From assembly GCF_001050535.1 (NCBI RefSeq), contig NZ_HG764815.1, positions 191,398-224,967 on the forward strand: a DNA stretch of 33,570 bases, written 5' to 3'. Of the stretch, positions 2,076-24,970 are shown one piece after another. The stretch's first letter is position 1, and the number at the start of each line of letters is the position of its first letter. The position numbers and the translations under genes were made by a program. The DNA is from Nostocoides australiense Ben110 (GTDB taxonomy: Bacteria; Actinomycetota; Actinomycetes; Actinomycetales; Dermatophilaceae). A model generated the notes under the pieces. That model searched no databases. It saw only the letters and a list, made by a program, of their open reading frames with translations, and was not told where the DNA came from.

Positions 2076-2894
2076 ATGACCGACAATCCCGCGCTGAGCC
2101 GCGACGTCTCCGCCCACCTCACCGCCCGCGTGACGCAGGAGGCGGAGATCGTGCTGAGCCTCGCCACGGCATACCGCCCCTCGCAGGAAGAGCTGAGCAT
2201 CACCGTCGACGGTGCGCCCGTGCCTTGCGAACAGGTGGTCTCGACCCACGACACGCGCCTGCACATCGTGCCCAAGACGCCTGTTGGCACGCTCGAAGTG
2301 CGTTATGCGGCAAAGCTTTTCGGCGACTTGCCGATCGATCCACGACGCGACGGTCCGGCTGATCGAATTCTCTATCTGCGGCCGAGCCGCTACTGCGAAT
2401 CCGACACCCTCGCCGAGGTCGCGGCGGCCGAGTTCGAGGGGTTGGCCGGCAAGGACCTGCTCGACGGGGTCAGCTCCTGGGTGGGCCAGCGGCTCGCCTA
2501 TGTCAGCGGCTCGAGCCGCCCGACCGACGGCGCCGTTCAGACCTATCTGTCCCGGGCCGGAGTATGCCGCGACTTCGCCCACCTGGTCATCGCGCTGCTG
2601 CGGGCGCGGGGCGTGCCGGCGCGGCTGGTGTCGGTATATGCCCCGGGTCTGTCGCCGATGGACTTCCACGCCGTGGCCGAAGCCTGTCTGGACGATCGGT
2701 GGTATGTCGTCGACGCCACCACCCTTGCCCCGCGCGCCGGGATGGTCCGGATCGCGACCGGCCGCGACGCCTCCGACACCGCGTTCCTCACCGTGCACTC
2801 CGGGCGCCTCGACCTGACCGGGATCGAGGTCAACGCGACGATGTCCCCCGCCCTCCCCGACGACGACGTCACCGCGCTGGTCTCGCTGGCCTGA
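2076..2894 (+). CDS. Second transglutaminase-like domain protein
   Basis: 272 aa, starting at ATG 13 bases after the previous stop with only a weak ribosome site (CAGGAC). The N-terminal ~130 residues form a beta-rich region like that of the preceding protein. The core follows with Cys164 in GVCRDFAHLV, His198 in MDFHAVAEA and Asp213 in WYVVDATTLA, so the catalytic triad looks complete. It is shorter than, and clearly diverged from, the transglutaminase just upstream: after the His it has AEACLDDRWYVVDAT where the upstream gene has WVSVRTPDGSW..DPTN. Two different transglutaminases behind one ATP-grasp/alpha-E gene suggest a multi-step pathway, but no substrate can be named. No signal peptide is visible. 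Confidence 0.88.
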   Translation: MTDNPALSRDVSAHLTARVTQEAEIVLSLATAYRPSQEELSITVDGAPVPCEQVVSTHDTRLHIVPKTPVGTLEVRYAAKLFGDLPIDPRRDGPADRILYLRPSRYCESDTLAEVAAAEFEGLAGKDLLDGVSSWVGQRLAYVSGSSRPTDGAVQTYLSRAGVCRDFAHLVIALLRARGVPARLVSVYAPGLSPMDFHAVAEACLDDRWYVVDATTLAPRAGMVRIATGRDASDTAFLTVHSGRLDLTGIEVNATMSPALPDDDVTALVSLA

Positions 2895-3043: not shown

Positions 3044-5866
3044 TCAAACCAGGCCGTGGCGGGCCCGGCTGGCCTGCTCCTGCTTGCGGAATTGTCCGAA
3101 GCGGGGCAGGAACTTGTCCCAGTCGATGATGTGGGCGTCGATCTCGGGGCCGTCGATGCAGGCGTGCTTGCGCACGGTCTTGCCCTCGATGGTCACCGGG
3201 ACCATGCAGGCGCCGCACATGCCGGTGGCGTCGACCATGATGGAGTTGAGGCTGGCGACGGTGTGCACGTCATACTTCTTGGCGAGATCGGCGACGGCCC
3301 GCATCATCAGCGGCGGGCCGATGGTGACGACCTCGGCGATGCGCCGACCGGTCCCCGCTCGAGCAGCCTCGAGCATGGTCTCCAGCGGCGTGGTGACGAA
3401 ACCCTCGACGCCGAAGGTGCCGTCGTTGGTCGCGTAGACGACCTCCAGCGTGTCCGGGAACTCCCGCTGCAACCCAGCCATCCGCTCGTCCTCGCCCGTC
3501 CAGAACAGCAGTGAGGCAGAACGGAATCCGGCGATCAGCGTGACGTGGTTGCCGCGCCGCAGGTGCTCGCGGGCGATCGGATAGACCGGCGGCAGGCCGA
3601 GCCCGCCGGCGGTGAAGACGACGGTCTCGGTGGCCGGGTCGTAGGCGTTGATCTCGCTCGGCCGGCCCAGCGGGCCGGCGATCCCGGCGAAGGAGTCACC
3701 GACGTTCATCTGGTTCATCTCGATGCTCGAGGTGCCGACGCCCTGGATGACCAGGCAGATCGTGCCCTTCTCGGTGTCCCAGTCCGCGAGGGTGAGCGGG
3801 ATGAGTTCCCCGTCCTCCCACGGCAGCACGCGCACGAATTGACCGGCCTGCGCCGCCTCGGCGATCACCGGCGAGTGCACGATGATCTCCTCGATCCCGT
3901 CGGCCAGGTGCGCCTTGGCGACGATGACCTGGCTCGCCGAGGCGCGCTCGGTGTAGTCCTTGGCCTTGGCCACCATGAGCGGGATCTGGTCGGCGGGGAC
4001 GTCGAGATGCCCGATGATCTCGCGCGCGGCGGCTTGGCCGTCGCCCGCGGCGTTGATCGCCGTTGATCCGCCGCGGGCGGCGTCTCCTCCGGAGTACACC
4101 CCCTCGATGGACGTTTCTTGAGATCCCTTGTGCTCCAGGTCGATCGTGCCCCACTTGGTGGTATGCAGTGTCGGCTCGGAGTCCTTGACGATCGGGTTGG
4201 CAGCGTTGCCGAGTGCCATGATGACCAGATCGGCCTTCATCGTCTCGGTCTGGCCGGTGGGGACCGGGCGCCGGCGGCCGGACGCGTCGGGCTCGCCGAG
4301 TTCCATGACGTCGAGGATGGCGGCGGAGACGAAGCCGGTCTTGTCGTCGCCGAGGAATTCCGTCGGACCACGCAGGACGAGCAGCTTGATGCCCTCCTCC
4401 AGCGCGTGTTCCAACTCCTCGACGCGGGCCGGCATCTCGGACTGGGTGCGGCGATAGACGATCGTCACGTTCCCACCCAGGCGCTTGGAGGTGCGAGCCG
4501 CATCCATGGCCGTGTTGCCGCCGCCGATGATGAGGACTTCCTTGTCCTTGACTTCGGGCAGCGGTGTCTCGTAGTCGTCGCGCAGCCCCTGCATGAGGTT
4601 GACGCGGGTGAGGAACTCGTTGGCGGACATGACATTCAGGTAGTGCTCGCCGGGCACGTCCATGAACCGGGGCAGCCCGGCGCCGGTGCCGACGAAGACC
4701 TTGTAGAAGCCGTTCTCCCGCAACTGTTCGATCGTCGCCGTCTTGCCGACGACGAAGTTGGAGACGAACTTGCCGCCGAGCAGCTTGATCTTGCCGACGA
4801 CGTCGTCGACGAGCTCGTTGGGGAGGCGGAACTCGGGTATGCCGTAGCGCAGCACGCCCCCGAGCGCATGGAAGGCCTCGAACACCGTCACCGGGAAGCC
4901 TTCTGCCGCAAGCAGATAGGCGTTGATCAGCCCCGACGGCCCCGAGCCGATGATGGCCACCGGAGGCTTGCTGGCCACCAGCCACGGGTCGCGCCGATGG
5001 GCGAAGCGTGCCGCATCGCCGTCGGGGTTGACGAGCTTCTCCCGCTCGGGCAGGAACCATTCGAGTTGGCCGATGGCGATCGGCATCTTGTTCTGGATGC
5101 ACACGCCCTGGCACTGCAACTCCTGCGGGCACACGCGGCCGGTGACATCGGGCAGCGGGTTGCACGATTCGATCAGTTCCATCGCCTCGTGGAACTTGCC
5201 GGTCCCGACGAGCTCCAACACCTTGGGGATGTGGATCTTGACCGGGCAGCCGCCCTTGAGGTCCGGCTTGCCGGCGATGTGCACGCCGACCTCACACGGC
5301 TTCTCCTCGCATTGCTTGTCGCGCAACGCTTCCAGCCACACGAAGAGGTCGACCTCGGCCCGGCTGTAGCCGACGTTCATATAGCCGAGATAGCCCTCGT
5401 TGACCAGACCGAAGTCGTGGGAGCGGTCCTCGGGTTCGCGAATGTGCGGCGGGATGGAGTTGCCCGCCGGCCAGTCCACCGACAGGCCCTTGAACATCGG
5501 ATAGCTGTCGGAGAGATGGGCATCGAGCGCCCGGACGAACTTGCGCTTGCCCTTCAGCGGCTGTGCCCACAGGAAGCGCATGATGACCCGGGACGCGTCG
5601 TCCTCGCGCAGCAGCACCTTCCACAATTCCTTGACGAAGTCGGCGCCCAACTCGTCCTGAGAGAACTCCCACATCACGGCGTTCATGCCGTCGTCGATGA
5701 ACATCTGCCGGAAGGTCGCCGGCTCGGCGATCAGCCGCCGCTTGAGCAACTCGATCTGCCGGTTGTAGGACTCCACCGCGTCGCTGTGCTCCAGCGTGGC
5801 GACCTGCGCCTGGGTGGCGGCGAGTTGGTCGCTGGCGGCCAGCCACTCGTGCAGTTCGCCGGTCAT
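3044..5866 (-). CDS. SudA-SudB / NfnAB-like fused flavoprotein (NAD(P)-ferredoxin oxidoreductase type)
   Basis: 940 aa. The ATG start overlaps the stop of the upstream PFOR gene as ATGA, so the two are translationally coupled. Residues 1-185 are an extension with no recognised domain. Residues ~186-280 carry the Cys motifs of glutamate-synthase-small-subunit-type iron-sulfur domains (CEEKPCEVG, GGCPVKIHIP, GRVCPQE..CQGVC). Two dinucleotide-binding motifs follow, IIGSGPSGL near 305 and IIGGGNTAMDAAR, as in GltD/SudA/NfnB. From ~645 there is a ferredoxin-reductase-like SudB/NfnA domain ending in a [2Fe-2S] Cys cluster (MCGACMVPV near 883, KHACIDGPE near 900). Known relatives are two separate subunits that transfer electrons between NADPH, NADH and ferredoxin. 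With PFOR next door, the likely job is moving pyruvate-derived electrons to NAD(P). Whether it bifurcates electrons or reduces polysulfide is not decidable from sequence. Confidence 0.85.
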   Translation of the reverse strand: MTGELHEWLAASDQLAATQAQVATLEHSDAVESYNRQIELLKRRLIAEPATFRQMFIDDGMNAVMWEFSQDELGADFVKELWKVLLREDDASRVIMRFLWAQPLKGKRKFVRALDAHLSDSYPMFKGLSVDWPAGNSIPPHIREPEDRSHDFGLVNEGYLGYMNVGYSRAEVDLFVWLEALRDKQCEEKPCEVGVHIAGKPDLKGGCPVKIHIPKVLELVGTGKFHEAMELIESCNPLPDVTGRVCPQELQCQGVCIQNKMPIAIGQLEWFLPEREKLVNPDGDAARFAHRRDPWLVASKPPVAIIGSGPSGLINAYLLAAEGFPVTVFEAFHALGGVLRYGIPEFRLPNELVDDVVGKIKLLGGKFVSNFVVGKTATIEQLRENGFYKVFVGTGAGLPRFMDVPGEHYLNVMSANEFLTRVNLMQGLRDDYETPLPEVKDKEVLIIGGGNTAMDAARTSKRLGGNVTIVYRRTQSEMPARVEELEHALEEGIKLLVLRGPTEFLGDDKTGFVSAAILDVMELGEPDASGRRRPVPTGQTETMKADLVIMALGNAANPIVKDSEPTLHTTKWGTIDLEHKGSQETSIEGVYSGGDAARGGSTAINAAGDGQAAAREIIGHLDVPADQIPLMVAKAKDYTERASASQVIVAKAHLADGIEEIIVHSPVIAEAAQAGQFVRVLPWEDGELIPLTLADWDTEKGTICLVIQGVGTSSIEMNQMNVGDSFAGIAGPLGRPSEINAYDPATETVVFTAGGLGLPPVYPIAREHLRRGNHVTLIAGFRSASLLFWTGEDERMAGLQREFPDTLEVVYATNDGTFGVEGFVTTPLETMLEAARAGTGRRIAEVVTIGPPLMMRAVADLAKKYDVHTVASLNSIMVDATGMCGACMVPVTIEGKTVRKHACIDGPEIDAHIIDWDKFLPRFGQFRKQEQASRARHGLV

Positions 5867-8800
5867 TGGATGATCTCCGCGTCGCAGGTCTTCTTGACCC
5901 GGTCCATCCGCTTCTCCAGATCCGGCGTGATCTCGACGCTCTCGAGCGCACCGGGGATCATCCGGGCGACCTTCTGCGGCAGCCCGTCGATGATCATCGT
6001 GTGCTGCTCGAACAGCTGCGGCAGCTCCTGATAGCAGGTGCCGCAGTCGTTGCACTTCGGGATGTCGACCTCGTCCAGCCAGATCGGCGCGTCGATCACG
6101 GCGGTTGCAGCCTCGGCCGGCGCGGCCGCCGGGGCTGCGCCACCCGGCATACCTCCGGCGCCGCTCGGGCGCACGGGGATGGCCGAGCCGAGCGAGACCG
6201 GAGCGCGGCTGGAGGAGGCGAGCGAACTCATCGCGTTGGCGATCTCGTCGATCGCGTTCTCGCGCGCCCGCATCGCCTCGTCATACCGCGCCTGCAGATC
6301 CTTCAGGTCGGAGGTGTGCAGTGCCGTCAGCTGGGCCTCGTGGACGCCGGAGAGGTACTGGAGCATCTGCCAGTAGCGGCGCCGGTCCTTCACGAGCGAG
6401 ACGATCGAGGCCGAGCACTGCACCTTGATGAGCTTCTGGTCGTCGTCGGTGGCCCAGATGAAGGGCACCTTGGAGGCCTGTTGCTCCTTGGGCAGTTCGA
6501 TGTATTCGTCCATCGGCACCGCTACGGGTTCGAGGTCGGTCGGCAGCCGGTGGAACTGCTTGCGGAAGCGGGTCTCGCCGAGCGCGAACTCCGCCGGCGT
6601 CAATGCGGCCTTCATCAGCTGGATGTTGCCGTCGTCGTCCTTGTAGGCGAGATCCGTTGTCGTCCAGGTCTTCTCGATGTCGGGGTTGCCCTCCAGGGAG
6701 AACCAGTCGTGCAGGGTCGAGCCGCGCCGTGGGTCGTGCACGAAGACCGGGTTCATCCGGGACTCGACCGCGAGCCGAGCGCGGGCCGCCGAGGCGTCCT
6801 CGCTGATGCCGTGCTCGGATCCACACGGGGTGTAGATGTCGAGCACCGCCGGCGCGTCGGTGTAGCGGAGGAACTCCATCGCATTGGTCAGGAAGTGTCC
6901 CTGGATGGCGGTGCTCGTCGCGCACACGAAGACGTGCGGGTGGAAGGAGGCGAGCAGGCCGAGTTCCTTGCGGGACTCGTGCTTGCCGTCGTGCGCCGAC
7001 CCGAAGCGGGAGAGGTCGGAGTCCTGCGCCGTCAGACTCGCCGTGGAGGCCTGCCCGCCGGTGTTGGAATAGACGCCGGAGTTGAGGACCATGACCTTGA
7101 TCGGGGTGTCGGAGGCGAGGATCCGCGACATCGCGCCGAAGCCGATGTCGTAGGAGGCGCCGTCGCCACCGATGGTCAGCACGGTCGGCATCAGGTCGAG
7201 TTCGGGCTTGGTGAAGTCGCCCCACCCGAGCATCGTCAACTGCTTGTCATGGACGGCCGGGTCATAGCTGTCGCTCAGCTCCAGCTCGGCCAGGCGCATC
7301 GCCTTGACATCCGTAACCAGTTGCGCCGCAGTGCCTTCGAAGATGCCCTTGGCCAGTGGCTGGGCGTCTTGGAAGAGGCTGTTGACCCACGGGTCGGTGT
7401 AGGGGTTGAACGGCATCGTCGAGGCGTAGACGCTGCTGCAGCCGGTGGCGTTGGCGATGATCGTCGACGCCGGGCCGGTGCCGGTCGGGCCGCCCTCGAG
7501 CAGATAGAGCCGGTGCTCGAGCGTCTTGATCGCGCCGTTGATCCGCTCGCGTCGCTCGTCGCTGTCGACGGTCGAGGCCTTGGCGTAGAGCCGGTCGATC
7601 AGGCCGATGAGCTCCTTGGTGTGCGCCTTGCGCCGCCGCTCGCCGAGGGCGTGCGAGGTCGACATGACGAGCCGGATGGCTGTCACCTCACCGCAGCCGC
7701 GGCAGCCGCCGTGCCCGCCGGTGGTCGCCCAGAAGTTGGCGTGGTCGAGCATGAGCCGCTTGATGTCGCCGTCGGGGCTGTCGGAGCCCTCGACGAAGCG
7801 GGTGGGCGTGTTCGGGTTCGCCGTCATGAACGCGAAGCGCTCCTGGAGCGTGGCGAGCACGCCGGCGTCCTGCTCCTGCACGGTCAGGGCCCCCGGTCCG
7901 CAGACCTCGACGCACTCGAGGCAGCCGGTGCACTTCCACGGGTCGATCGTCGCGGCGAACAGGCCGCCGGTGCCCGGCTCGTCCTTCTCGGGTGAGTCGA
8001 AGAACGGGCGAGTGCGCGCCACCGGGTAGGTCGCGAGCTTGGCCACGAGCTTGTCGACCGTATGCTGCATGGTCGGGTCCGTCGCGACGCTCGCCGCGGC
8101 GGTGGCCACGATCTCGTGGAACGGCTTTTCTTCCCTGTGCCGCAACGCTTCTCGGGTGCGTTCGGCGATGCCGAAGATCTCCTTGCGGAGCACATCCTTC
8201 TGTCCGTCGGTGGCGTCGATCTCGGTGACCGCCGTGAGGATCAGGTCGTGTATCTCGTGGACCGTGTTGGGGATCGCCGCGTCCGGGCAGACCAGCGCGC
8301 ACTCCATGCAGCCGGTGCAGATGTCGGGGTTGAACGCCGGCACCTCACGCCGGAAGAGGCCCTTGTCCTTGCCGGCGGCGGTGCCGGGCGGCATGAACAG
8401 ACCGGCACCCGGGAGCACCGGGGCCTCGCCGATGGTGCCCTCGCGGAAGGGTCGCGCCATCAGGTCCTCGTAATAGGTGGGGTCGAACAGGCCGGAGGTC
8501 CGCTCCGCGCGAGCGCTCGGGCACATCGACGCCGACAACGCCACCGTGAGCAGGGGTTTCGGCGCCGGGTGGTCGTCGATCTCGAGGAAGGCCGCGGTGT
8601 CGTAGTCGATCTGCGTCGTTGCCTCGATGCCGTCGAGGATGACGGACATATTGCTCTCGACGACGGTCTCGCCCTTGCGGCCGAACTTCTTCTCGATCTG
8701 CTTGTGGACGCGCTCGAGGATCTGGTCGCGCGAGGCACCGTGGGCGACGCGGTCGACGTGGGCCGCGACCGCACCGATGAACGCGATGCCCATCATGCGA

Positions 8801-10863
8801 GTCTCGAGTTCGGGGATCGGCGCGTGCTTCTTGGCCACCGTGAAGGCGTCGACGACGAAGAAGCGGATCTTCTTGTCACGGATCGTCTTTCGCGCACCCC
8901 GCGGCAGGTCCGCCCAGACCTGCTCGGGGCTGAGGTTGGACTGGAGGATGAACGTGCCACCCTCGGCCAAGCCCTTGAGCGGGTTGGTGTGGATGAACGC
9001 CTTGTGGTCGGGCGCGATGACGACTTCGACGTCCTCCAACTCGGCGTTGGTCGTCAGGATCGGCTCCGGCGAGAGCGTGATGTAGTAGTTCGTCGGCGCG
9101 CCGGACTTCTCCGAGCCGTATTTCGGCGCCGACTTGCTGTGCATCCCGAGGACGCCGGCGAGGATGTCGGTGAGCAGCTTGCCCGTCGCGATCGTGCCGT
9201 AACCGCCGACGGAGTGGAAGCGGATCCGCATCCCTTCTGCCGGAAGGAGATTCGGGTTCGGCTCGGTCTCGAGCGCCATGAGTTCAGTCTCGGGGTATGC
9301 CGCGCGCAGCCGCTCCTGGAGCTGCGCCATGTGCGGGTCGGGGTTCTTGTCGAAGAACTGCGACCCGAGATAGATGAGCGGAGGAAGGGTGCCTGCATCC
9401 AGCGCCTTGAACGCGGCATTCAGGTGGCGCGGCTGCAGGTCGTGTCCACCCAGGCCGAAGATGGCCGTGGTCAACACGGGCGACTGAGCCAGTGCGGGGA
9501 TTCCGTTGTGCCGCTGCGACTCCGCGTTCTGCTGCGCCTTGAACAGGGCCGCCGTGACGAGGGACGTCAGCGCCGTCTGGTCGGAGCGCTCCAGGACGAT
9601 GACGGACTTCTTGCCCGCGAGCGCAGCAACGACCTCGGCCTCGGGGAAGGGCTGCAGCATCTTGACGGAGACCAGGCCGGCCTTGATGCCCTGCTCGCGC
9701 AGGTAGGGCAGGACGGCGCGCACGTCGTCGCAGACCGAGCCGAGCCCGACCATGACGACCTCGGCGTCGTCGGTGTCATAGGTGTGAACCGGGGTGTAGG
9801 TGCGGCCCGTCAGTTCCGAATACTCCGCCATGGCCTGGCGCACCAGCGACGGCACGGCGGAGGCGAAGTGGGTGCGGTGGTCGACGGCGCCGGCCTGGAA
9901 GTCGGGCTGGTTCTGCACCGGCCCGGTCAGGCCGGGGTTGTTGACGTCGACGAGGGAGGGCACCAGCTGGCGCGTCCCCTTCTCCCACGCATTGACCCAT
10001 TGGCGACGCCACGGCCCCTTGAGGTCCTCGGGGACCCAGGCGAGCGTCATACCCACCAGCTCTCCGTCGTTGTCCTTCTCCACCTCGTCCGCCTTGGCGG
10101 CGAGGAAAGCCTGCAGCGCCGCAACATCATCCGCCGGGATGTCCCGGCCGTGGCGACGCAGGAACCCCTCCAACTGGAAGACCCGGCCCTTGGCGCCGAA
10201 CAGCATCTCCTGCGCCAGCGTCGGGCAGGCGATCCGGCCGGCGGGGTCACCCAGATATTCGCGCAGCAACTCCGGCTCCGGCATCAACGCCTCGGAGAGC
10301 ATGTGGCTCGTCGAGAAGCCGTCCATCGCGTTGGCGACGGGGATCAGCGAGAGCGAGGAGGCGCGGTAGGAGATCGCGGCGAGGTCGGCGGCCTCCTGCG
10401 GGTTGGCGCCGAAGAGCACGGTGTAACCGGAGGACAGCAGCGCGTAGATGTCGTCGTGGCCGGCCATGACGTTGAGGGAGTGCTTCGACACCACACGCGC
10501 GGCGACCTGCAGCACGAAGCCGCCGATCTTCTTGCCGACGGTGACGAAGTGGGACTCCATCGCGTAGAGGATGCCCTGGCTGGAGGAGGCGTTCGAGATG
10601 AACGCGCCGCCGGTCAGGGCCGCGCCGAGCGCACCGGACTGGGCGGAGTGCTCGCCCTCGGGCTCGAAGAAGAACGCGTGCTTGCCCCAGACGTTGACAC
10701 CACCCTCGGCGCGCGCGGCTTCATACAGCTCGGAGATCTCGGTCGAGGGGGTGATGGGGTAGCCGATGACCCCGCCGCAGACCTGGCTCATGACGTGAGC
10801 CACGGCGGCGTTGCCGTTGATGACGGTGGGTTGCCCCGGGTACTTCGCTGTGTTCGCGGTCAT
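5863..10863 (-). CDS. nifJ: Pyruvate:ferredoxin (flavodoxin) oxidoreductase, extended form
   Basis: 1666 aa; the usual single-chain enzyme is about 1170-1230. ATG at 10863 follows a good GAAGGA site. Order: N-terminal pyrimidine-binding domain (VINGNAAVAHVMSQVCGGV, GYPITPSTEI), a second transketolase-type domain, the gamma domain near 540-740 (HSVGGYGTIATGKLL), two [4Fe-4S] motifs (CTGCMECALVCP from 849, CTGCLECVEVCGPGAL from 978), and the thiamine-diphosphate domain (HGGCRGCGE, GGDGASYDIGFG near 1230, NSGVYSNTGGQ). It oxidatively decarboxylates pyruvate with CoA to acetyl-CoA, reducing ferredoxin or flavodoxin. The last ~250 residues are extra: a helical stretch, an Ala/Gly/Pro linker near 1550-1590, then Cys1604, 1607, 1610 and 1660, which resemble a single-cluster ferredoxin. 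Oxygen-sensitive in general, so probably used under low oxygen. Another 2-oxoacid substrate is possible. Tyr-Ala pairs here use TAC, unlike most neighbours. Confidence 0.93.
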   Translation of the reverse strand: MTANTAKYPGQPTVINGNAAVAHVMSQVCGGVIGYPITPSTEISELYEAARAEGGVNVWGKHAFFFEPEGEHSAQSGALGAALTGGAFISNASSSQGILYAMESHFVTVGKKIGGFVLQVAARVVSKHSLNVMAGHDDIYALLSSGYTVLFGANPQEAADLAAISYRASSLSLIPVANAMDGFSTSHMLSEALMPEPELLREYLGDPAGRIACPTLAQEMLFGAKGRVFQLEGFLRRHGRDIPADDVAALQAFLAAKADEVEKDNDGELVGMTLAWVPEDLKGPWRRQWVNAWEKGTRQLVPSLVDVNNPGLTGPVQNQPDFQAGAVDHRTHFASAVPSLVRQAMAEYSELTGRTYTPVHTYDTDDAEVVMVGLGSVCDDVRAVLPYLREQGIKAGLVSVKMLQPFPEAEVVAALAGKKSVIVLERSDQTALTSLVTAALFKAQQNAESQRHNGIPALAQSPVLTTAIFGLGGHDLQPRHLNAAFKALDAGTLPPLIYLGSQFFDKNPDPHMAQLQERLRAAYPETELMALETEPNPNLLPAEGMRIRFHSVGGYGTIATGKLLTDILAGVLGMHSKSAPKYGSEKSGAPTNYYITLSPEPILTTNAELEDVEVVIAPDHKAFIHTNPLKGLAEGGTFILQSNLSPEQVWADLPRGARKTIRDKKIRFFVVDAFTVAKKHAPIPELETRMMGIAFIGAVAAHVDRVAHGASRDQILERVHKQIEKKFGRKGETVVESNMSVILDGIEATTQIDYDTAAFLEIDDHPAPKPLLTVALSASMCPSARAERTSGLFDPTYYEDLMARPFREGTIGEAPVLPGAGLFMPPGTAAGKDKGLFRREVPAFNPDICTGCMECALVCPDAAIPNTVHEIHDLILTAVTEIDATDGQKDVLRKEIFGIAERTREALRHREEKPFHEIVATAAASVATDPTMQHTVDKLVAKLATYPVARTRPFFDSPEKDEPGTGGLFAATIDPWKCTGCLECVEVCGPGALTVQEQDAGVLATLQERFAFMTANPNTPTRFVEGSDSPDGDIKRLMLDHANFWATTGGHGGCRGCGEVTAIRLVMSTSHALGERRRKAHTKELIGLIDRLYAKASTVDSDERRERINGAIKTLEHRLYLLEGGPTGTGPASTIIANATGCSSVYASTMPFNPYTDPWVNSLFQDAQPLAKGIFEGTAAQLVTDVKAMRLAELELSDSYDPAVHDKQLTMLGWGDFTKPELDLMPTVLTIGGDGASYDIGFGAMSRILASDTPIKVMVLNSGVYSNTGGQASTASLTAQDSDLSRFGSAHDGKHESRKELGLLASFHPHVFVCATSTAIQGHFLTNAMEFLRYTDAPAVLDIYTPCGSEHGISEDASAARARLAVESRMNPVFVHDPRRGSTLHDWFSLEGNPDIEKTWTTTDLAYKDDDGNIQLMKAALTPAEFALGETRFRKQFHRLPTDLEPVAVPMDEYIELPKEQQASKVPFIWATDDDQKLIKVQCSASIVSLVKDRRRYWQMLQYLSGVHEAQLTALHTSDLKDLQARYDEAMRARENAIDEIANAMSSLASSSRAPVSLGSAIPVRPSGAGGMPGGAAPAAAPAEAATAVIDAPIWLDEVDIPKCNDCGTCYQELPQLFEQHTMIIDGLPQKVARMIPGALESVEITPDLEKRMDRVKKTCDAEIIQ

Positions 10864-10876
10864 TTCGTTTCCTTCA

Positions 10877-10921
10877 CCGGATTGCCACATCCGGTCTCGT
10901 CGGCCGCGCGCCACCGCGGCC
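10877..10921 (-). promoter_or_regulatory. Paired hairpins in the leader between small ORF and nifJ
   Basis: Two perfect inverted repeats occupy the 75-base gap between the small ORF and nifJ. One has 7-bp arms, GGCCGCG 10902-10908 and CGCGGCC 10915-10921. The other has 6-bp arms, CCGGAT 10877-10882 and ATCCGG 10889-10894, and ends just before the nifJ ribosome site. They could attenuate transcription, mark an RNA processing site, or protect the nifJ mRNA end. No T tract is present. Confidence 0.45.
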
Positions 10922-10938
10922 CTGTCGCGGTTGGAGTC

Positions 10939-11082
10939 CTAGGTGTCGGACTCCTCGGGGTCGACATGCGGGAAGAATCCCGACGTGCCAAGTTCGGGTG
11001 ATTCAAAGAGGTCCGTGGCGAAGTCCTCCGGCGGGGGCTGGTCGAGGACGTCCGATTCCGCTCGGGTCATCACGTCGCTCAT
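10939..11082 (-). CDS. Small acidic protein upstream of nifJ
   Basis: 47 aa, ATG at 11082 to TAG at 10939. A strong GGAGG ribosome site sits 7 bases before the ATG, and most third codon positions are G or C, both in favour of a real gene. The protein begins MSDVMTRAESDVLDQ and ends HVDPEESDT. It has at least fourteen Asp/Glu against one Arg, no Cys, no signal peptide and no membrane segment. No family is recognised. It is the first gene of the PFOR operon, 75 bases before nifJ, with two hairpins in between. It could be a small partner or assembly protein for the oxidoreductase, or a translated leader; there is no run of a single amino acid as in classic attenuator peptides. Confidence 0.6.
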   Translation of the reverse strand: MSDVMTRAESDVLDQPPPEDFATDLFESPELGTSGFFPHVDPEESDT

Positions 11083-11147
11083 CGCCTGCCTCCAGTCGTA
11101 GGTGACTCATCGGCAGCGGGCGGCAAACCTCGACCCCTTGCGCGGCG

Positions 11148-11159
11148 CACCACGTGGTG
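11148..11159. promoter_or_regulatory. 12-bp perfect palindrome between divergent genes
   Basis: CACCACGTGGTG is a perfect palindrome in the 202-base gap between the small ORF/nifJ operon (minus) and the toroid protein gene (plus). Its position fits an operator for a dimeric regulator of either promoter. The regulator cannot be named. Confidence 0.35.
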
Positions 11160-11271
11160 GCCGACGCTTGTCCTCGCTGTGGACCTTTTCATCAAGTCAC
11201 TTCGCGCGGAGGAACGCAAGATGGAACGGAGTGGATTACGCCACACCGCGACGGGTGTCGGTCCTCGTTCC

Positions 11272-11277
11272 TAGAGT
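11272..11277 (+). promoter_or_regulatory. -10 box of a leaderless promoter
   Basis: TAGAGT lies 7 bases before the ATG at 11285, and no ribosome site precedes the ATG. This is the usual actinobacterial leaderless arrangement. No convincing -35 box is seen. Confidence 0.45.
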
Positions 11278-11284
11278 CGCGGGT

Positions 11285-12247
11285 ATGACGTCGCTCCAGT
11301 TCTCGTCCGATGCCCTCGACCGCTCGCGCGCCTGGCTGGCTGCTCATGGCCGGCCTCTCGAGCGGGTGCGGCTCGCGCAGGTGCTCGGCACGGCCACCCC
11401 CGGTCAAGTCACCGATGCCGTGTCCGCCTATGCCAACTCCGACGGCGGGGTCGGCAACGCACTCGAGTCCGACTGCCGCGCACCGGAATCCAGTGCCCTC
11501 GGTGCGCTGACGGCGCTCGACATCCTCCGGGCACACCGCGTGCCGGGTGACCATCCGCTGGTGGGTCAGGTGTGCCGATGGCTCGTCGAGAGTGTCGAGT
11601 CCGATAGGCAAGGGCGCTTGGTATGGCCGTTCCTTCCCCCGTCGGCCCAGGCCAGTCCGCATGCGCCCTGGTGGGACCAGAGCGAGCCGGGTCAGCTCGC
11701 CGAGACGTTTGCCGGGTATGCCGCGAACCCGGGTGTCGCGTTGACCGCTCACCTGTGGCGGCGCGAGGTGGCTGCGCCGGGGAGCGTGCCTGCCGAGATG
11801 CTGGCCCAACTCACCCAGCAGGTGCGCGATGTGGCTGCTGACGGTGTCTCGGCGGAGGAAGTGAACGCCCACGATGCGTTGGCGCACTTCGCCGGAGAAG
11901 CCGCCACGCCCGCGGACGCGCGGGAGGCGGTCACGGCATACCTCCGTCGGGTGCTTCCGGAGCGGGTGATGGCGACGGAGGCCGACTACGCGACATACGG
12001 GATCCACCCGCTGTGGATCGCGCCCACGCCGGCGCACCCGCTCGCCGCCGCCCTGGCCGACACGCTGCCGATGGCTCTCGACCGGACGATCGCGAGCCAG
12101 CAGCCGGACGGCTCGTGGGCGACCTTCTGGGACTGGGGTGGCTGGCACCCGGATGTCTGGCCACAGGCCGAGCAGGAATGGCGCGGTTCGCTGATCGTCC
12201 GCAATATCGCCGCCCTGCTGGCTCATGGCCGGGTGGTTCGCCCGTAG
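11285..12247 (+). CDS. Terpenoid-cyclase/prenyltransferase-like toroid protein, function unknown
   Basis: 320 aa. The ATG at 11285 is preferred over an in-frame upstream start at 11102 because a TAGAGT box lies 7 bases before it and the extra 61 codons are low-quality basic sequence. The protein looks like an alpha-alpha toroid: repeated helices (SSALGALTALDILRAH, VCRWLVESVE) and a QW-type motif near the end (QQPDGSWATFWDWGGW), with Trp-rich loops (WPFLPP, PWWDQ). Squalene cyclases and protein prenyltransferases share this fold, but the cyclase DxDD acid motif is not visible, so catalysis of that kind is doubtful. No signal peptide or membrane segment is seen. It is divergent from the PFOR operon and 60 bases ahead of gpsA, possibly in its transcript. 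Confidence 0.75.
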   Translation: MTSLQFSSDALDRSRAWLAAHGRPLERVRLAQVLGTATPGQVTDAVSAYANSDGGVGNALESDCRAPESSALGALTALDILRAHRVPGDHPLVGQVCRWLVESVESDRQGRLVWPFLPPSAQASPHAPWWDQSEPGQLAETFAGYAANPGVALTAHLWRREVAAPGSVPAEMLAQLTQQVRDVAADGVSAEEVNAHDALAHFAGEAATPADAREAVTAYLRRVLPERVMATEADYATYGIHPLWIAPTPAHPLAAALADTLPMALDRTIASQQPDGSWATFWDWGGWHPDVWPQAEQEWRGSLIVRNIAALLAHGRVVRP

Positions 12248-17773: not shown

Positions 17774-20155
17774 TCACGCCCGGGCGGCGCGCATCTGCTC
17801 GGTGAAGACCTCTGTGGAGACGGCCGCGATGAGGGCGACGGCTTCGGTGATCTCGCGGAGCTCCTGCTCGAAGCGGGCGGCCCGCTCGGAACGGTCCGGG
17901 CCGTCTACCAAGACCCCTTGGTTGTCCGCCAGTTGCAGGCCGGTGGCGAAGAGGAGCGCCGAGACCGGGTCCGCCGAGGCGACCCGGCGCTGGGCGATCA
18001 GTTGCTCGCCGTAGGCGAGGGCGTCCTTGGTGACCTGGGCCTTGTCGATCGGTCCCGCTGCGCCATGGTGGGCGAGCACGTCGGCGACGATGCCGTAGGC
18101 CTCGAAGAACGGCCGGAGACTCACGGGTGCGACGAGCGGCATCCGGCCGCGCAGCATCGTGCGGATATCGAAGTCGGCGGCAGTCAATTTCGCCTCCCAC
18201 CCGGGGTCGGCCATCGCCATCTGCGCGGCGATCTGCTCGCGATAGACCGACTTCTCCTGGAAGTAGAAGTCGAACTTCAGCAGATCCCGCAGGCGGTCGA
18301 CCGCGCGCCAGAACCGCTCCAATCGCTTTGTGCCGGAGTCGGATCGGGCGGCGAGCGCCAGGGCGATCTCGCAGATGGCGCCGAGCTGGAAGAACTGGAT
18401 GATCGAGTTCCGATAGAAGGTCGCGGCGAGTTGCTTGTCCGGGCCGATGAGCCAGACGACGTCCCGTGCGCCCTCGACGCGCGTGACGATGCCGGACGCC
18501 GCGAGAGCGCGCAGCACCTGCTCGACGCCGGCTTCCGCGCGCAGGTTTGGCACGCTCGAGGCCAGCGGGGCGGCGAGGTTCTCGAGATAGTCCAGGACCT
18601 GGCTGAGCGCGACCGTGACCTGTCGCGAGGTCAGGGCGGCACCTTGCGTCGCCAGCAGCGTCGCGGTGACCAGTGCCGTCGGTGTCACCGGCATCGCCAT
18701 GTTGATCCGCCAGGCCACCTCGAAGGCCATCTTCTGCAGGGCGAGCGCACGCCTGGCCTCGTCCTGGGCGATCTCGCCATTGGGCGGCCCCATGAGCGAT
18801 CGCATCGAGACCGGTTCCGGATAACGGATGTAGATCTTGCCGAAGTTGCCCTGCCCCTGTGCCTTGATGAAGCCGTAGAGCCACTTCATCCCCTCGGCGG
18901 CCTTCTTGCCGCCGCGCGCGTATTCGGCATACTCGCCGACTTCGTGCAACTGGTCGAACGCGATCGAGACCGGTTGCAGGGCAATGTCGTCCGACCGGCC
19001 CTCGATGTAGGCATCGGCGACGAAGGACAACAACCCGAGCTTGGGAGGAAGCATCTTGCCCGTGCGAGAGCGCGTGCCCTCGATCGACCACGAGAGGTTG
19101 AACCGCTTCTCGGCGAGATAGCCGACGAACTCTTTGAGAAGGAACTTGTAGAGAGGGTCGCCGATAGAGCGTCGGATGAAGATGACACCGCTACGCCGCA
19201 GGATCGCGCCCATCGGGCCGAACGACATATTGATGCCGGCGAACATGTGCGGCAGCGGGAGACCGTTCTCGTGGAGCGATGCCGCCAGCACCGGGGTGTC
19301 CAGATTGGAGCGGTGCGACCACAAGAAGATAACGGGGCGCTCGGCCAGTGTCTGCTTGAGCCGCGAGATCTCGGTGGTGTCGGTGTCGATCGTGGGGTCG
19401 AAGCCGCGCTGGAACACCGCGCGGCCCACGCGAGGGTAGACGTCGATGAACAGCCGGCCCCACCCGGTCGCCATCTCTTCGAGGATCTCCTCGACCTTCT
19501 CCTCACTCGTTGCGTCGGGGCCGAGTTCGAGCCGAATCCGTTGCAGCCCGGCCTGGAAGTGCTTGTTGGCGAGGATCTCGTCCTTGACCAGTTTGGCCGA
19601 CTTGAACTGTGGCCCCAGCAATTGGGCCTCCGCGCGCTGTAGGGCCAGTCGGGCCCGGCGAATGACGAATCTCGCGAAGCCGTCGGCATCTGCGGCGGGA
19701 TCCTTCCCGGACTCGACGTAGCGCTCCCGGAGGGTCGCCACGCTGGCGCTCGCCCCCTCGGTCACGCGGCCTCGATCGGGCTCCTTGCGCGCGATCGCGC
19801 CTTGCTGGCGCGGTGTCGGCTTGTAGGGATTGTGTCCGCGCGCCAGGTCGCGCAGCCGCACCTTACGCTCGCCGTCCGTGTGCTCGGACGGCAGCCAGGT
19901 CACCCCCATCGGCAGCAGTTCGACGTCCCCGAACTCCGCCAACCGCACCCGCAGGCCCTCGATATCGGCCGGTGACGCCTTGGCCCGGGGCACGCCGAGG
20001 ACTTCCGGCGCGTCCGGACCGTCACCGAAGAGCTGGCGGACGCGGTCCCGGACCAGCCGTTCCTCGACGGCGGTGCGCGTGACCGCGAAGACGACAAGGC
20101 GGCCAGCGACGGTGCGTTCAGAAGCGGTGCGTTCAGAGACGGTGCGTTCAGACAC
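17774..20155 (-). CDS. plsB: Glycerol-3-phosphate 1-O-acyltransferase
   Basis: 793 aa, typical for the membrane-associated PlsB family. GTG at 20155 overlaps the stop of the preceding gene by 8 bases. Visible motifs: the HX4D acceptor site HRSNLD (His281, Asp286), the region GVIFIRRSIGD, and SIEGTRSRTGK (motif III, with EGTRSR). It places an acyl group on position 1 of glycerol 3-phosphate, the first acylation step of phospholipids and triacylglycerol, at the inner membrane face. The N-terminus is odd: three 5-residue repeats (SERTV, SERTA, SERTV) coded by 15-bp tandem repeats. A later start is possible, but no better ribosome site is seen. It is the last gene of a coupled lipid operon; the gene order matches the M. 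tuberculosis Rv2484c-Rv2482c type. Confidence 0.93.
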   Translation of the reverse strand: MSERTVSERTASERTVAGRLVVFAVTRTAVEERLVRDRVRQLFGDGPDAPEVLGVPRAKASPADIEGLRVRLAEFGDVELLPMGVTWLPSEHTDGERKVRLRDLARGHNPYKPTPRQQGAIARKEPDRGRVTEGASASVATLRERYVESGKDPAADADGFARFVIRRARLALQRAEAQLLGPQFKSAKLVKDEILANKHFQAGLQRIRLELGPDATSEEKVEEILEEMATGWGRLFIDVYPRVGRAVFQRGFDPTIDTDTTEISRLKQTLAERPVIFLWSHRSNLDTPVLAASLHENGLPLPHMFAGINMSFGPMGAILRRSGVIFIRRSIGDPLYKFLLKEFVGYLAEKRFNLSWSIEGTRSRTGKMLPPKLGLLSFVADAYIEGRSDDIALQPVSIAFDQLHEVGEYAEYARGGKKAAEGMKWLYGFIKAQGQGNFGKIYIRYPEPVSMRSLMGPPNGEIAQDEARRALALQKMAFEVAWRINMAMPVTPTALVTATLLATQGAALTSRQVTVALSQVLDYLENLAAPLASSVPNLRAEAGVEQVLRALAASGIVTRVEGARDVVWLIGPDKQLAATFYRNSIIQFFQLGAICEIALALAARSDSGTKRLERFWRAVDRLRDLLKFDFYFQEKSVYREQIAAQMAMADPGWEAKLTAADFDIRTMLRGRMPLVAPVSLRPFFEAYGIVADVLAHHGAAGPIDKAQVTKDALAYGEQLIAQRRVASADPVSALLFATGLQLADNQGVLVDGPDRSERAARFEQELREITEAVALIAAVSTEVFTEQMRAARA
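20111..20155 (-). repeat. Three 15-bp tandem repeats at the plsB start
   Basis: Units 20111-20125, 20126-20140 and 20141-20155 share GGTGCGTTCAGA on the plus strand and differ in the last bases. They encode SERTV/SERTA repeats. The outermost unit also contains the stop codon of the upstream gene, so copy number affects the overlap region and the length of the PlsB N-terminus. Confidence 0.85.
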
Positions 20156-21611
20156 GAGGATCCCCTTCGGCAGGCCAGTTGCTCAGCACGTCCAGATACA
20201 GATCACGCACCCCGTCAATCCGTTCGACGAGTTCCTCCTCGGGCCACTGGGATACTGAAATTGGTTGCAGCACGGCTATATTCACGGTGCCCGGGTTCAC
20301 GGTCATCGAGTCGCGAGCCGCAACGTCGTCGGCATTGCCGATCACGATCGGCACGACGGGCACACCGGCAGACATGGCCATCCGGAAGGCGCCCTTCTTG
20401 AAGGCGCCGACCTCATGCGTGTCGTAGCGGTGACCCTCAGGTGACACGACGACGGAGATGCCCTTCGCGAGAACCCGTTCGACGTCCTGCATGGAGGACA
20501 CCGCCGCGTCGGTGTTCTCCCGGTCGATGAAGGCGATGTCCATGGCCCGGCCGAAGGTGCCGAAGAGCGGGTTGGACTTCAGTTCGTGTTTGGCGACGCC
20601 CGTGAAATCAGTGCGCACCACCGCCGACACGATGAACGTGTCCATCGCGGTGCGGTGGTTGAAGATGAAGATCGCCGGCCGGTGTGCATCGAGGTTGTGC
20701 GCCCCGACGACGTTCAGCTTCACGCCTTGTGCTTCGAGCAGCGCCCGGGGCCACAGGCCCGTGACGACATTGAGACCTGAGCGCTTGCTGCCGGTGATCG
20801 CTCCGACCACGGCCGCGCCGGCGGCGGTGATCGGGGCCAGCAGTGACGCCCCGATCAGGTTGCGGACCAACGACTCCCGGCCATCGATACCGCGCGTCGA
20901 ATAGCGCGAGATCGGCCAGCCGCGTTTCTTGGCCACCTTGGCCATCAGCGGTCCGGGGTTGGTCGGGCGCGGATTGCCGACCAGGTGCATCAGCGCGACA
21001 TCCTCGTCCCCGTCGGCATAGAAGTAACAGTCGGCGAGATCGACACCGGCAGACGCGGCATACCGCTGGGCCGCTGTGGCCTTGCCCTCTCCCCAGATCA
21101 CCGGCTCCACCAGACCACCGGTCAAGGTGCCGTCGGCGTCCACCACGAACTGATTGCACACCACGTCGTCGATGCCGAGATAGTCGGCGACCGGTTGCAC
21201 CTGCATGCTCGTCGCCGACGAACACAGCACGACGCGATGTCCCCGCTCGCGGTGCGCCCGCACCAGCGCCCGGGTCTCGGGATAGAGCAGATCGGCGACC
21301 TGGTCACCGAAGACCTTCTCCCCCAACGCATGCAGCTCATCCAGCGTGCGCCCGCGAAAGACGGACGACGCCTGTTGTACCAGGCTCTCGAACGGTGCCG
21401 CGCCCGCCTGATAACTCAGCCCCAGGCCGACCATGCGCAGGAAGTCGAGAACGCCGATGTCCCGGTTGCGCAGCCCGGCCTTGGTATAGATCGTGACCGT
21501 GTACCCGGCGACGAGTGTGCCGTCGAGGTCGAAGAAGGCCGCGATGTGATCACCCTCGGGTGAACCGAGGACCTCGGCGACGGTGCCGGGGACCCGGGGG
21601 GCGGAGTTCAC
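20148..21611 (-). CDS. plsC: HAD-IB phosphatase fused to 1-acylglycerol-3-phosphate acyltransferase (PlsC)
   Basis: 487 aa. GTG at 21611 overlaps the upstream stop (GTGA). The N-terminal ~270 residues are a SerB-like HAD phosphatase: the nucleophile motif FFDLDGTLVAG (Asp28, Asp30), CSSATSMQVQPVADYLG (motif II), the Lys in GEGKATAAQRYA, and YADGDEDVALM (motif IV). The C-terminal ~200 residues are a PlsC acyltransferase with FNHRTAMDTF (HX4D: His319, Asp324), the segment FIDREN, and SPEGHRYD. The order fits acylation of lysophosphatidate to phosphatidate, possibly followed by dephosphorylation to diacylglycerol by the HAD domain; the second activity is inference, since the homologous mycobacterial proteins are only annotated as bifunctional. 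It lies between WS/DGAT and plsB, which supports a lipid substrate for both domains. Confidence 0.9.
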   Translation of the reverse strand: MNSAPRVPGTVAEVLGSPEGDHIAAFFDLDGTLVAGYTVTIYTKAGLRNRDIGVLDFLRMVGLGLSYQAGAAPFESLVQQASSVFRGRTLDELHALGEKVFGDQVADLLYPETRALVRAHRERGHRVVLCSSATSMQVQPVADYLGIDDVVCNQFVVDADGTLTGGLVEPVIWGEGKATAAQRYAASAGVDLADCYFYADGDEDVALMHLVGNPRPTNPGPLMAKVAKKRGWPISRYSTRGIDGRESLVRNLIGASLLAPITAAGAAVVGAITGSKRSGLNVVTGLWPRALLEAQGVKLNVVGAHNLDAHRPAIFIFNHRTAMDTFIVSAVVRTDFTGVAKHELKSNPLFGTFGRAMDIAFIDRENTDAAVSSMQDVERVLAKGISVVVSPEGHRYDTHEVGAFKKGAFRMAMSAGVPVVPIVIGNADDVAARDSMTVNPGTVNIAVLQPISVSQWPEEELVERIDGVRDLYLDVLSNWPAEGDPRV

Positions 21612-23119
21612 CGGGCCCGCTTACGCGTTGCCGCCGCTCGCGTCCCGGACGCGGCCCGCGCGGCGGGAACCTTCGGCGACGGGGCGAGCCGCGCGGCCTT
21701 CTTCTTCACGACGGGATGTGTTCCTGCCAATGGCGCGATGACACCGCCGGCGGCCAACACCTCGGCGAACCCCTCACGCAAGCACTTCTCGAGCAGGTCA
21801 TCGTCGACGAAACTCGCTGTGTCATAACGGAAACCGATGAAAGCACGCCCCAGGCGAGTGATCATCGTGGCCATCATCCCGACGCCCGGCACCGGGCCCA
21901 TGCCGTATTGCGCGACGACCTGGGCCCCGGCCACGAAGGTCGGCCCGGGATAGGACATGACGTTGCTGCACTGGACGTCCACCGGCGCCACCGCGCCGAC
22001 CAGCGGGTCCACCACGAGGTCCGGCAGCATCGCCGTCAGCGAGGACACGACACCCATCACGTCCAGCGCCGGCTCGTCGCGGCGCGTCGCCACGATCCGC
22101 CGGATCGCGGCGATCCGCGCGGCGGGATCGGCCTCGCCGATCGGCGCCGCCAGGATCAGGCCGGTCCACCGGTTGCCTCCCGCGTCGTCCGAGGTTGCGC
22201 GCAGGCTCACCGGGATCGCCATCGGCAGCGAGTCGACCGGCAGCCCGAGCCCCTCGTGATAGCGCCGCAAGGCGCCGCACATCGCGGCGAGATAGGCGTC
22301 ATTGACACTGCCGCCCAACGCCTTTCCGGCAGCTTTCAACCCCGGCAGGTCGAGTTCCAGGGTCAGCATGCGACGCTGGATCCCGCGGCCCGCAAGCAGC
22401 GGCGACGGTTGGGCCTGGGCGACCGCGCCCAGCACGCGGCGCAGCGACGCGGCATACCCCAAGGCGCCGGAAACAGCGCCCACGGGATCGCCCACGGCCT
22501 TCAGTCCCAGCCCCAGCGCCGAACGCGTGACGCCCACGGCCCGCCACGGCAGTTCCTTGACGCCTTGCAGCGCCAGATCGTTCGGCTCCAGATCGTGCGG
22601 CACGGGCAGCTCGGGCATCGCCAGCCCGCGGCCTTCGCGCGTCAGGTCGTAGACCTGCGCGAACATCTCGACGCCACCGACGCCGTCGGTGATGGCGTGA
22701 CTGAGCTGCGAGATCATGGCGGCGCCGCCACCCTCGAGCCCCTCGACCAGCGTGACCCGCCACAAGGGCCGCTGCAGATCCAGCGGGGTGATGAACAGCT
22801 GCTCGGCGAAGTCCAGCAACTCCCGGTGGGATCCGTTGCCGGGCAACGCCACTCGGCGCACGTGATAGGACAGGTCGAAGTCGGGATCGATCACCCAACG
22901 CGGTGACGTCGTCGGCGCGCTGGGCACCACCACCCGCTGACGCAGCCGCGCAACCGAGCGCGACGCCCGCTCGAAGGTCTCCAGGAATCGATCCCAGTCC
23001 GGCGGGGCCTCCAGCAGTTCGACGCTCAGGACGCTGCTGCGGGTGCGCGGATTGGCCTCACCGCGGTGCAAGAAGTGATCGGCCGCCGTCATCGGCACTT
23101 GGCCGGTCGCTGAACTCAT
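21608..23119 (-). CDS. Wax ester synthase/diacylglycerol acyltransferase (WS/DGAT)
   Basis: 503 aa, normal for the family, which makes triacylglycerol or wax esters from acyl-CoA and diacylglycerol or fatty alcohol at the membrane/lipid-droplet surface. ATG at 23119 is chosen because it lies 7 bases from a -10-like box; an internal Met ten codons later is also possible. Visible: the N-terminal MTAADHFLHRGEANPRT region, PLWRVTLVEGL, the active-site motif as SHAITDG (residues 140-146; the usual first His of HHxxxDG is Ser, the catalytic second His141 is kept), GSVNDAYLAAMCGALRRY, and SNVMSYPGP. The C-terminal ~40 residues are a Lys/Arg/Ala/Pro-rich tail not typical of the family. First gene of the lipid operon, coupled to the HAD-PlsC gene by GTGA. 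Confidence 0.9.
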   Translation of the reverse strand: MSSATGQVPMTAADHFLHRGEANPRTRSSVLSVELLEAPPDWDRFLETFERASRSVARLRQRVVVPSAPTTSPRWVIDPDFDLSYHVRRVALPGNGSHRELLDFAEQLFITPLDLQRPLWRVTLVEGLEGGGAAMISQLSHAITDGVGGVEMFAQVYDLTREGRGLAMPELPVPHDLEPNDLALQGVKELPWRAVGVTRSALGLGLKAVGDPVGAVSGALGYAASLRRVLGAVAQAQPSPLLAGRGIQRRMLTLELDLPGLKAAGKALGGSVNDAYLAAMCGALRRYHEGLGLPVDSLPMAIPVSLRATSDDAGGNRWTGLILAAPIGEADPAARIAAIRRIVATRRDEPALDVMGVVSSLTAMLPDLVVDPLVGAVAPVDVQCSNVMSYPGPTFVAGAQVVAQYGMGPVPGVGMMATMITRLGRAFIGFRYDTASFVDDDLLEKCLREGFAEVLAAGGVIAPLAGTHPVVKKKAARLAPSPKVPAARAASGTRAAATRKRAR

Positions 23120-23126
23120 GCGCCAA

Positions 23127-23155
23127 GGATCACGGGCGCCGGGACACCTGGTCAA
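23127..23155 (-). promoter_or_regulatory. Putative promoter of the lipid operon
   Basis: On the minus strand TTGACC (23155-23150) and TGATCC (23132-23127) are separated by 17 bases, and the ATG follows 7 bases later. The -35 box is good, the -10 weak. It lies in the 105-base gap to the divergent DUF429-RelA gene. Confidence 0.35.
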
Positions 23156-23224
23156 CTCACCGCCGCCACGTGAGCACGGGTCCGTGACGTGGCCAGGATC
23201 CCCGTGGCGTGACAGGGTGTCGAG

Positions 23225-24970
23225 GTGCACTGCATCGGAATCGACCTCGCGTGGGGCGACCGCGCTCACACGGGCGTCGCCGTGCTCGACGACGGCGGGC
23301 GCCTCGAGCTGGTCACCGGCGCCACCGACGACGCCTCGATCGCGCGGGCCCTGGCCCCGTATGCCGAGCGCGACGTCGTCGTGGCCATCGATGCTCCGAT
23401 CGTGGTCACCAATGCGACCGGAGCCCGCGCGGCCGAGCGCGCGCTGGGGGCGGACTTCGCGCGCTTCGACGCCGGCGCCCATCCGACCAACACCGGCAGG
23501 CCGGAGTTCGCCGAGGGTTCCCGGGCCTCCCGCCTGGTCGCTGCCCTCGACCTGACGGTGACCTTGGACCCGCAGACGAGCCGCCGGGCGATCGAGGTTT
23601 ATCCGCACGCCGCTTCCATCGCTCTGTTCCGCCTCGGCCGGACCCTCAAATACAAGAACAAGCCCGGCCGCTCGCTCGTCGCGATGCGGGGTGAGCTGCT
23701 GCGGCTGACCCAGCTGCTCGAGTCGCTCGCGGACGCGACCCCCCGGCTGGACCTGCATACGGCCGCCTGGAGCGACCTGGTCGCCGGCATCGCCGGCGCG
23801 ACCCGCAAGGCCGACCTGCAGCGCGCCGAGGATCAGGTGGACGCGGTGCTGTGCGCGTATGTCGCTCGGCTGGCCGCGCTCGATCCGCAGAGTCTGGCGA
23901 CCTACGGTGACGACGCGAGCGGGGTCGTCGTCACACCCCGGCTGCCCGCCGATCACCAGCCCGAGCCCCGCCCGGCCCGCCAACCCGGCCGTGACCGCAT
24001 CGTCGACGAGGCAGTGCGGATCTTTCGCGAAGGGCACCCGCGACTGGAACGTGCGGCCGCGGCCTATGTGGATCACGTGCGGGGCATCCTCGACGAGGCA
24101 GGCATCAACTATCTGTCGGTGACCGGCCGCGCGAAGAGCCTGAAATCGTTCTCGGAGAAGGCGGCCCGCAGCCGAGACGGCCGACCGCTGCACCCCGAGC
24201 CGCTCGCCGACATCCACGACCAGATCGGGCTGCGGGTGATCACCTTCCTGCGTCGCGATGTCGCGGCGGTCGCCGAGCTGCTCGCCGGCGAGTTCACGGT
24301 GCTCGACGACCGCGATCTGGGGCTGGAGACCGCCGGCGAGGGTCGCTTTGGGTATGCCAGTCGCCACCTGCAGCTCGCCGTCGACACCCCGGGCATCGCC
24401 GGCGACGGGCCGCTGACCGCGACCGAGGTGCAGGTCCAGGTGCGGACGGTCCTGCAGCACGCCTGGGCCGAATACGAGCACGCGATCCGTTACAAGGGGT
24501 CGATCCCGCTCGCACACGCCTCCGAGCTGGATCGACGGTTCACGCTCGCTGCGGGGCTGCTGGAGCTGGCCGACGAGCAGTTCACCGCGATCCACGAGCA
24601 ACTGCAACAGGATGCCGAGCTGGTCGAAGAGGCGGACGACACCGCACTGTCCGGCCGCGACCTGGCCGCCTATCTCGCGGGGCACTATCGCGACGCCGGC
24701 TGGTCGCGCGAGGACCACTACGTCTGGATGGCCGCGCTGCTCGGCGAACTGGGCATCACCCGGGTGCCCGAGCTGGCCGCGGTCCTCGCCGAGGTCGACG
24801 AGGCCGAGCTGACGAGCCGGCTCGGCTACCGCTATCCCGCCGCCGCCGTGCGCCGTCTCGACGATGCCCTGCTCGCCCACTTCGGCGAGCGGTATGCCGC
24901 CCTCCCGGGCAACGCCGCCCGCCGCGAGTTGCTCGCGGCTCGCCTCGCGCGGATCGGCACGGCCGGCTGA
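23225..24970 (+). CDS. DUF429 domain fused to RelA/SpoT (alarmone synthetase) domain
   Basis: 581 aa; GTG at 23225 begins directly at the DUF429 core. Residues 1-~240 are DUF429, a predicted RNase H-fold protein: GIDLAWGDRAHTGVAVLDD, DAPIVV.N, EVYPHAASIALF, LKYKNKPGRSL, AEDQVDAVLCAYVA. A Pro/Arg linker follows. Residues ~265-440 are a RelA/SpoT nucleotidyltransferase: GRAKSLKSFSEKAAR, IHDQIGLRVITF (Asp332 for the metal), FGYASRHLQ (Tyr377, guanine stacking) and VQVQVRTVLQHAWAEYEH. In the usual E-x-Q-x-R-T motif the Glu is replaced by Gln403, with Glu401 two residues before. No HD hydrolase domain, TGS or ACT is present. Residues 440-581 are helical, unrecognised. It may make (p)ppGpp-like nucleotides or pyrophosphorylate tRNA like toxic small synthetases, or be a degenerate sensor; which is open. 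Divergent from the lipid operon and convergent with fgd. Confidence 0.85.
   Translation: MHCIGIDLAWGDRAHTGVAVLDDGGRLELVTGATDDASIARALAPYAERDVVVAIDAPIVVTNATGARAAERALGADFARFDAGAHPTNTGRPEFAEGSRASRLVAALDLTVTLDPQTSRRAIEVYPHAASIALFRLGRTLKYKNKPGRSLVAMRGELLRLTQLLESLADATPRLDLHTAAWSDLVAGIAGATRKADLQRAEDQVDAVLCAYVARLAALDPQSLATYGDDASGVVVTPRLPADHQPEPRPARQPGRDRIVDEAVRIFREGHPRLERAAAAYVDHVRGILDEAGINYLSVTGRAKSLKSFSEKAARSRDGRPLHPEPLADIHDQIGLRVITFLRRDVAAVAELLAGEFTVLDDRDLGLETAGEGRFGYASRHLQLAVDTPGIAGDGPLTATEVQVQVRTVLQHAWAEYEHAIRYKGSIPLAHASELDRRFTLAAGLLELADEQFTAIHEQLQQDAELVEEADDTALSGRDLAAYLAGHYRDAGWSREDHYVWMAALLGELGITRVPELAAVLAEVDEAELTSRLGYRYPAAAVRRLDDALLAHFGERYAALPGNAARRELLAARLARIGTAG

Follow-up and report, generated by a model that had tools for sequence, protein, structure and literature searches.

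A 47-residue acidic reading frame ahead of a large pyruvate:ferredoxin oxidoreductase in Nostocoides australiense: a probable small-protein gene and putative partner of the enzyme

Small genes beside larger ones

TnaC, SecM and MifM are leader or arrest peptides encoded before regulated genes, and PorE and ForE of Hydrogenobacter are small extra subunits of multi-subunit 2-oxoacid:ferredoxin oxidoreductases. Pyruvate:ferredoxin oxidoreductase (PFOR) belongs to an oxygen-sensitive enzyme class. CrsL is reported to be a disordered actinobacterial protein of 5.7 kDa that binds CarD, is widespread in actinobacteria and carries a conserved MLGIGP stretch (PMC12709188).

The locus studied here lies in a window of 33,570 nucleotides, the whole stretch of DNA that was analysed, and can be set beside these systems. 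Its product resembles CrsL in its very short length and, as predicted, in disorder of the protein alone and in docking on a large partner; unlike CrsL, none of the four peptides known to us contains MLGIGP, and profile A1, built from these four peptides, has no relatives in the class sample. As with TnaC, SecM and MifM, a short ORF lies directly 5′ of a gene and its conserved residues are near the C-terminus, but the spacer here has no significant structure and in one relative (G022) there is no spacer at all. As with PorE and ForE, the small protein is encoded together with the enzyme; however, PFOR here is one chain while theirs are multi-subunit. In the literature on small proteins accompanying PFOR or nifJ, judged by titles and opening lines of abstracts, none of this kind is described.

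The small ORF, its operon and its relatives

The small ORF occupies positions 10939–11082, as the initial annotation had placed it, and lies on the minus strand, with its ATG at 11082 and a TAG stop at 10941–10939; the plus-strand reading of the same positions is interrupted by an internal stop. Its 47-residue product, MSDVMTRAESDVLDQPPPEDFATDLFESPELGTSGFFPHVDPEESDT, is very acidic, as claimed, with 13 D or E residues, one R, no K, no C and a net charge of −12. The GGAGG Shine–Dalgarno-like site that had been noted is present at 11089–11093 (minus strand), six bases 5′ of the ATG, and the spacer between the small ORF stop and the PFOR ATG at 10863 is indeed 75 nt long (10864–10938, minus strand). 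The GC content at codon positions 1, 2 and 3 is 0.67, 0.42 and 0.81, a coding-like pattern in which the third position is high, although below the 0.92 of PFOR. It should be noted that the GGAGG site by itself is not decisive, since five ATGs preceded by GGAGG at 4–9 nt occur on the two strands of the whole window; what we take as decisive is the conservation of the small ORF in three other genomes.

The gene downstream (5863–10863, minus strand) encodes a large PFOR variant of 1666 aa, in which Pfam POR domains and a C-terminal single-cluster ferredoxin-like domain were found with a query piece starting one codon upstream of the ATG at 10863. Against NCBIfam TIGR02176, which describes the ordinary single-chain enzyme, the protein scores 397 bits, under the cut-off of 911. 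This large divergent variant has a helical insert between two cluster motifs and an Ala/Pro-rich linker leading to the C-terminal ferredoxin-like domain. The genome also has a second PFOR of ordinary length (G000:C1:762266-765625; L027, L035), an open frame of 1193 aa that is about 30% identical, and no profile A1 match was found at this second PFOR. The third gene (3044–5866, minus strand) encodes a PRK12779-type (NfnAB/GltD-like) oxidoreductase; its ATG overlaps the PFOR stop as ATGA (5863–5866, minus strand), and this start was inferred from the overlap together with the family match, which sets in at residue 65 of the longer ORF.

The order of PFOR followed by the NfnAB-like gene is found in all four genomes that have the small ORF. 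In G022, the small ORF stop and the PFOR start share ATGA, in parallel with the ATGA of genes 2 and 3 in the window. The called genes upstream of the four operons have no relatives in common; the crude gene calls missed the G009 oxidoreductase, which a direct search found in place, so such calls may be wrong elsewhere too. A promoter and terminator scan of 10850–11320 found none. The conserved position before PFOR and the ATGA overlap in G022 indicate that the small ORF very probably heads an operon of three genes, for the small protein, the large PFOR and the NfnAB-like oxidoreductase, which agrees with the leading place it had been given initially.

Other genes of the window can be mentioned briefly. 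A divergent 320-aa ORF (11285–12247, plus strand) adjoins the small ORF and has no Pfam match and no credible NCBIfam match. A run of three lipid genes at 17774–24880 (minus strand) encodes a glycerol-3-phosphate acyltransferase, a HAD–acyltransferase fusion and a wax ester synthase/diacylglycerol acyltransferase, and a pair of adjoining transglutaminase-like genes lies at 65–2062 and 2076–2894 (plus strand).

When 38 genomes were searched with the window peptide, the best two matches outside the genome studied (E = 4.2e-4 and 0.025) lay directly 5′ of PFOR homologues. Reading upstream of PFOR revealed a homologous ORF of 53–57 aa in the corresponding position in three further genera of this family (G009, G022 and G183), and none in G097 or G056. 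The window peptide was also compared with up to 450 nt of DNA before each PFOR, leaving out L072, whose contig begins inside PFOR: the scores for G009, G022 and G183 were 65, 54 and 88, respectively, with none of 300 shuffles as good in each case, and those for 26 other PFOR loci were 19–29. Among 186 family genomes, profile A1 matched in the same four only, each time 5′ of this PFOR; since the profile was built from these four peptides, only the absence elsewhere is new information.

The four peptides share the core [LP]F[DE]xxExxx[SG]GF[FL]P[HR], which in the window protein comprises residues 25–39, LFESPELGTSGFFPH, near the C-terminus, and the N-terminal half is poorly conserved in this alignment of four sequences only. 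Across 14 core codons, identity at positions 1, 2 and 3 is 0.71, 0.81 and 0.39, with 6, 5 and 13 variable sites, respectively (Fisher p = 0.001, a guide only, the rows being related). In the core, third positions vary while first and second positions are conserved, a coding-like pattern. The third-position excess is less marked when all 37 ungapped columns are counted (95, 91 and 135 differences at codon positions 1, 2 and 3). One antisense frame of the core also retains amino acid identity (0.58 vs. 0.61 in the proposed frame), and the proposed frame is favoured because of the position-3 pattern and the GGAG site that precedes the ORF in all four genomes. The coding-like codon pattern, these GGAG sites and the ATGA overlap in G022 indicate that the small ORF is very probably a genuine, translated small-protein gene, as first suggested. 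An accessory microprotein would be expected to have an ORF under coding constraint and a conserved linkage to one enzyme gene; such constraint is found here in the sequence, and all four ORFs precede PFOR, accounting for four of the six PFOR-bearing genomes of the family.

Possible roles of the small protein

The window peptide had no match in Pfam, all four peptides had none in NCBIfam and nothing convincing in PHROGs (a single peptide hit an unnamed family at E = 0.11), profile A1 had no match in the PDB, and the G022 peptide had none among plasmids. The small gene is unnamed in the Pfam, NCBIfam, PDB and PHROGs libraries searched. A ferredoxin-like or metal-binding small subunit was considered and rejected; with no Cys in any of the four peptides and no His common to all of them, the His being Arg in G183, the small protein is unlikely to have a metal-binding or redox function itself. 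A lasso-type RiPP precursor, prompted by the GF...D spacing, was dropped because a Pfam scan of 16 ORFs of the window, the small ORF among them, revealed no maturation enzymes. The AlphaFold2 model of the small protein is of low confidence (pLDDT 64), which fits, without proving, a peptide that is unstructured alone, as this one probably is.

The initial annotation had left open a partner, a chaperone, an inhibitor or a translated leader, and the candidates can now be narrowed towards a partner of PFOR acting in trans. The coding signature, the conserved position and the operon layout can be read in the sequence itself. Both the conserved linkage to PFOR and the short core shared by the peptides point to a protein binding the enzyme of the operon, and such binding is most likely, while the direction of its effect is a guess. 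In the reading that we favour, and consider about evenly poised between right and wrong, a strongly acidic peptide, probably unstructured alone, would be made from the first gene of the operon, would dock in trans on PFOR through the C-terminal core F-[DE]-x-x-E-x3-[SG]-G-F-[FL]-P, and would stabilise or tune the enzyme or its electron hand-off.

The main rival of a trans-acting partner is a cis-acting translated leader, in which translation of the small ORF would open or close the ribosome-binding site of PFOR, either through coupling or through stalling of the nascent chain at the core, the peptide itself having no target. The location of the small ORF directly before PFOR in four of four genomes, the ATGA overlap in G022 and the conserved residues near the C-terminus are consistent with this possibility, but the length of the spacer differs (75 nt in the window vs. 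none in G022), and the three spacers, folded alone, gave no better folding than shuffled sequences did (z = −1.58, 0.64 and −0.67). In addition, no Rfam match was found at 10700–11400, and families of arrest peptides mostly depend on a ribosome-binding site that is masked, which also counts against a leader. We regard regulation in cis as the less likely reading.

A special case of the trans-acting partner is suggested by the core itself. Because the core resembles PFOR residues 952–975 (PFFDSPEKDEPGTGGLFAATIDP and flank; 7939–8010, minus strand), the small protein might mimic this segment, which leads into the second [4Fe-4S] motif, and might compete for its packing site in PFOR or on the partner of PFOR. 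The mimicry is a hypothesis from a post hoc comparison, not a result, and we would give it only a minor share of belief. When the consensus core was compared with the PFOR of the genome studied (G000), none of 2000 shuffles was as good, and its best seven matches among 96 called proteins were all PFORs. A skeleton common to all four peptides has a single occurrence in every one of six PFORs, at this segment, against an expectation of 0.0095 for a shuffled PFOR, and 35,034 aa of other proteins contain none. Ten PFORs conserve the segment, whose last part lines up with the residues preceding the second cluster in PDB 6cin. However, the resemblance was found after the fact, and gap costs and pattern were loosened once it had been seen; under the stricter gap costs used at first, the comparison had not reached significance (91 of 500 shuffles did as well). 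The G009 and G183 peptides alone do not find the segment, profile A1 has no significant match against PFORs, and a genome-wide search with the consensus returned the small ORF only. The segment also occurs in PFORs that are not preceded by the small ORF, and in an AlphaFold2 model of a PFOR fragment it falls in a region of low confidence, residues 146–198, where nearly all values are below 50. If the mimic took the place of the segment on PFOR or on its NfnAB-like partner, it could gate electron flow or shield the clusters from oxygen, a microprotein switch for PFOR that we consider improbable; to our knowledge, such a switch of a pyruvate:ferredoxin oxidoreductase is without precedent.

Finally, GC-rich DNA is rich in open frames (183 of at least 60 aa in the window) and the peptide is absent before most PFOR homologues, but a chance open frame without a product is very hard to reconcile with a core conserved with third-position divergence across four genera, a GGAG site in every case and the ATGA overlap in G022.

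Distribution and significance

PFOR of this kind is carried by six of 186 family genomes, by 25 of 396 genomes of the order and, in the phylum sample of 366, by the genome studied only; three genomes of the same genus have neither PFOR nor the small ORF. The initial annotation had proposed checking whether the frame is conserved before nifJ in close relatives, and the outcome is mixed: it is kept in three of the five other PFOR-bearing family genomes, and it is absent in the remaining two (G097 and G056) and at 24 additional PFOR loci, of which 23 belong to other families of this order and one (L042) has no family assigned. Since all these loci manage without it, the small protein is not essential to the enzyme.

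Beyond the genome studied, profile A1 found nothing credible in the sample of 396 order genomes (best weak match E = 0.06) or in the sample of 364 class genomes. Weak matches in L084, L088 and L089 belong to a single type of longer protein, presumably a sugar-phosphate isomerase/epimerase, and a match in G790 (E = 0.008, class sample) falls within a longer reading frame that is unrelated; we attribute all of them to chance. The small-protein family thus appears to be lineage-restricted and narrow as far as searched.

In a tree of 30 PFOR N-terminal parts, the four genomes with the small ORF fall in a mixed, partly unresolved group, and G097, which lacks it, branches with the genome studied. 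A single label change is insufficient on this tree, indicating that the small ORF was lost or gained more than once. The G097 PFOR has 37 private columns, compared with 29–66 for the other four taken singly, and with no excess of private changes it bears no trace of a lost partner.

The small gene is short enough for routine annotation and ordinary gene finders to miss. If the mimicry were true, it would encode a microprotein directed to the enzyme of its own operon through likeness to a part of that enzyme. A dedicated small protein accompanying a single-chain PFOR would offer a way to study how enzymes of this oxygen-sensitive class are tuned or protected in actinobacteria.
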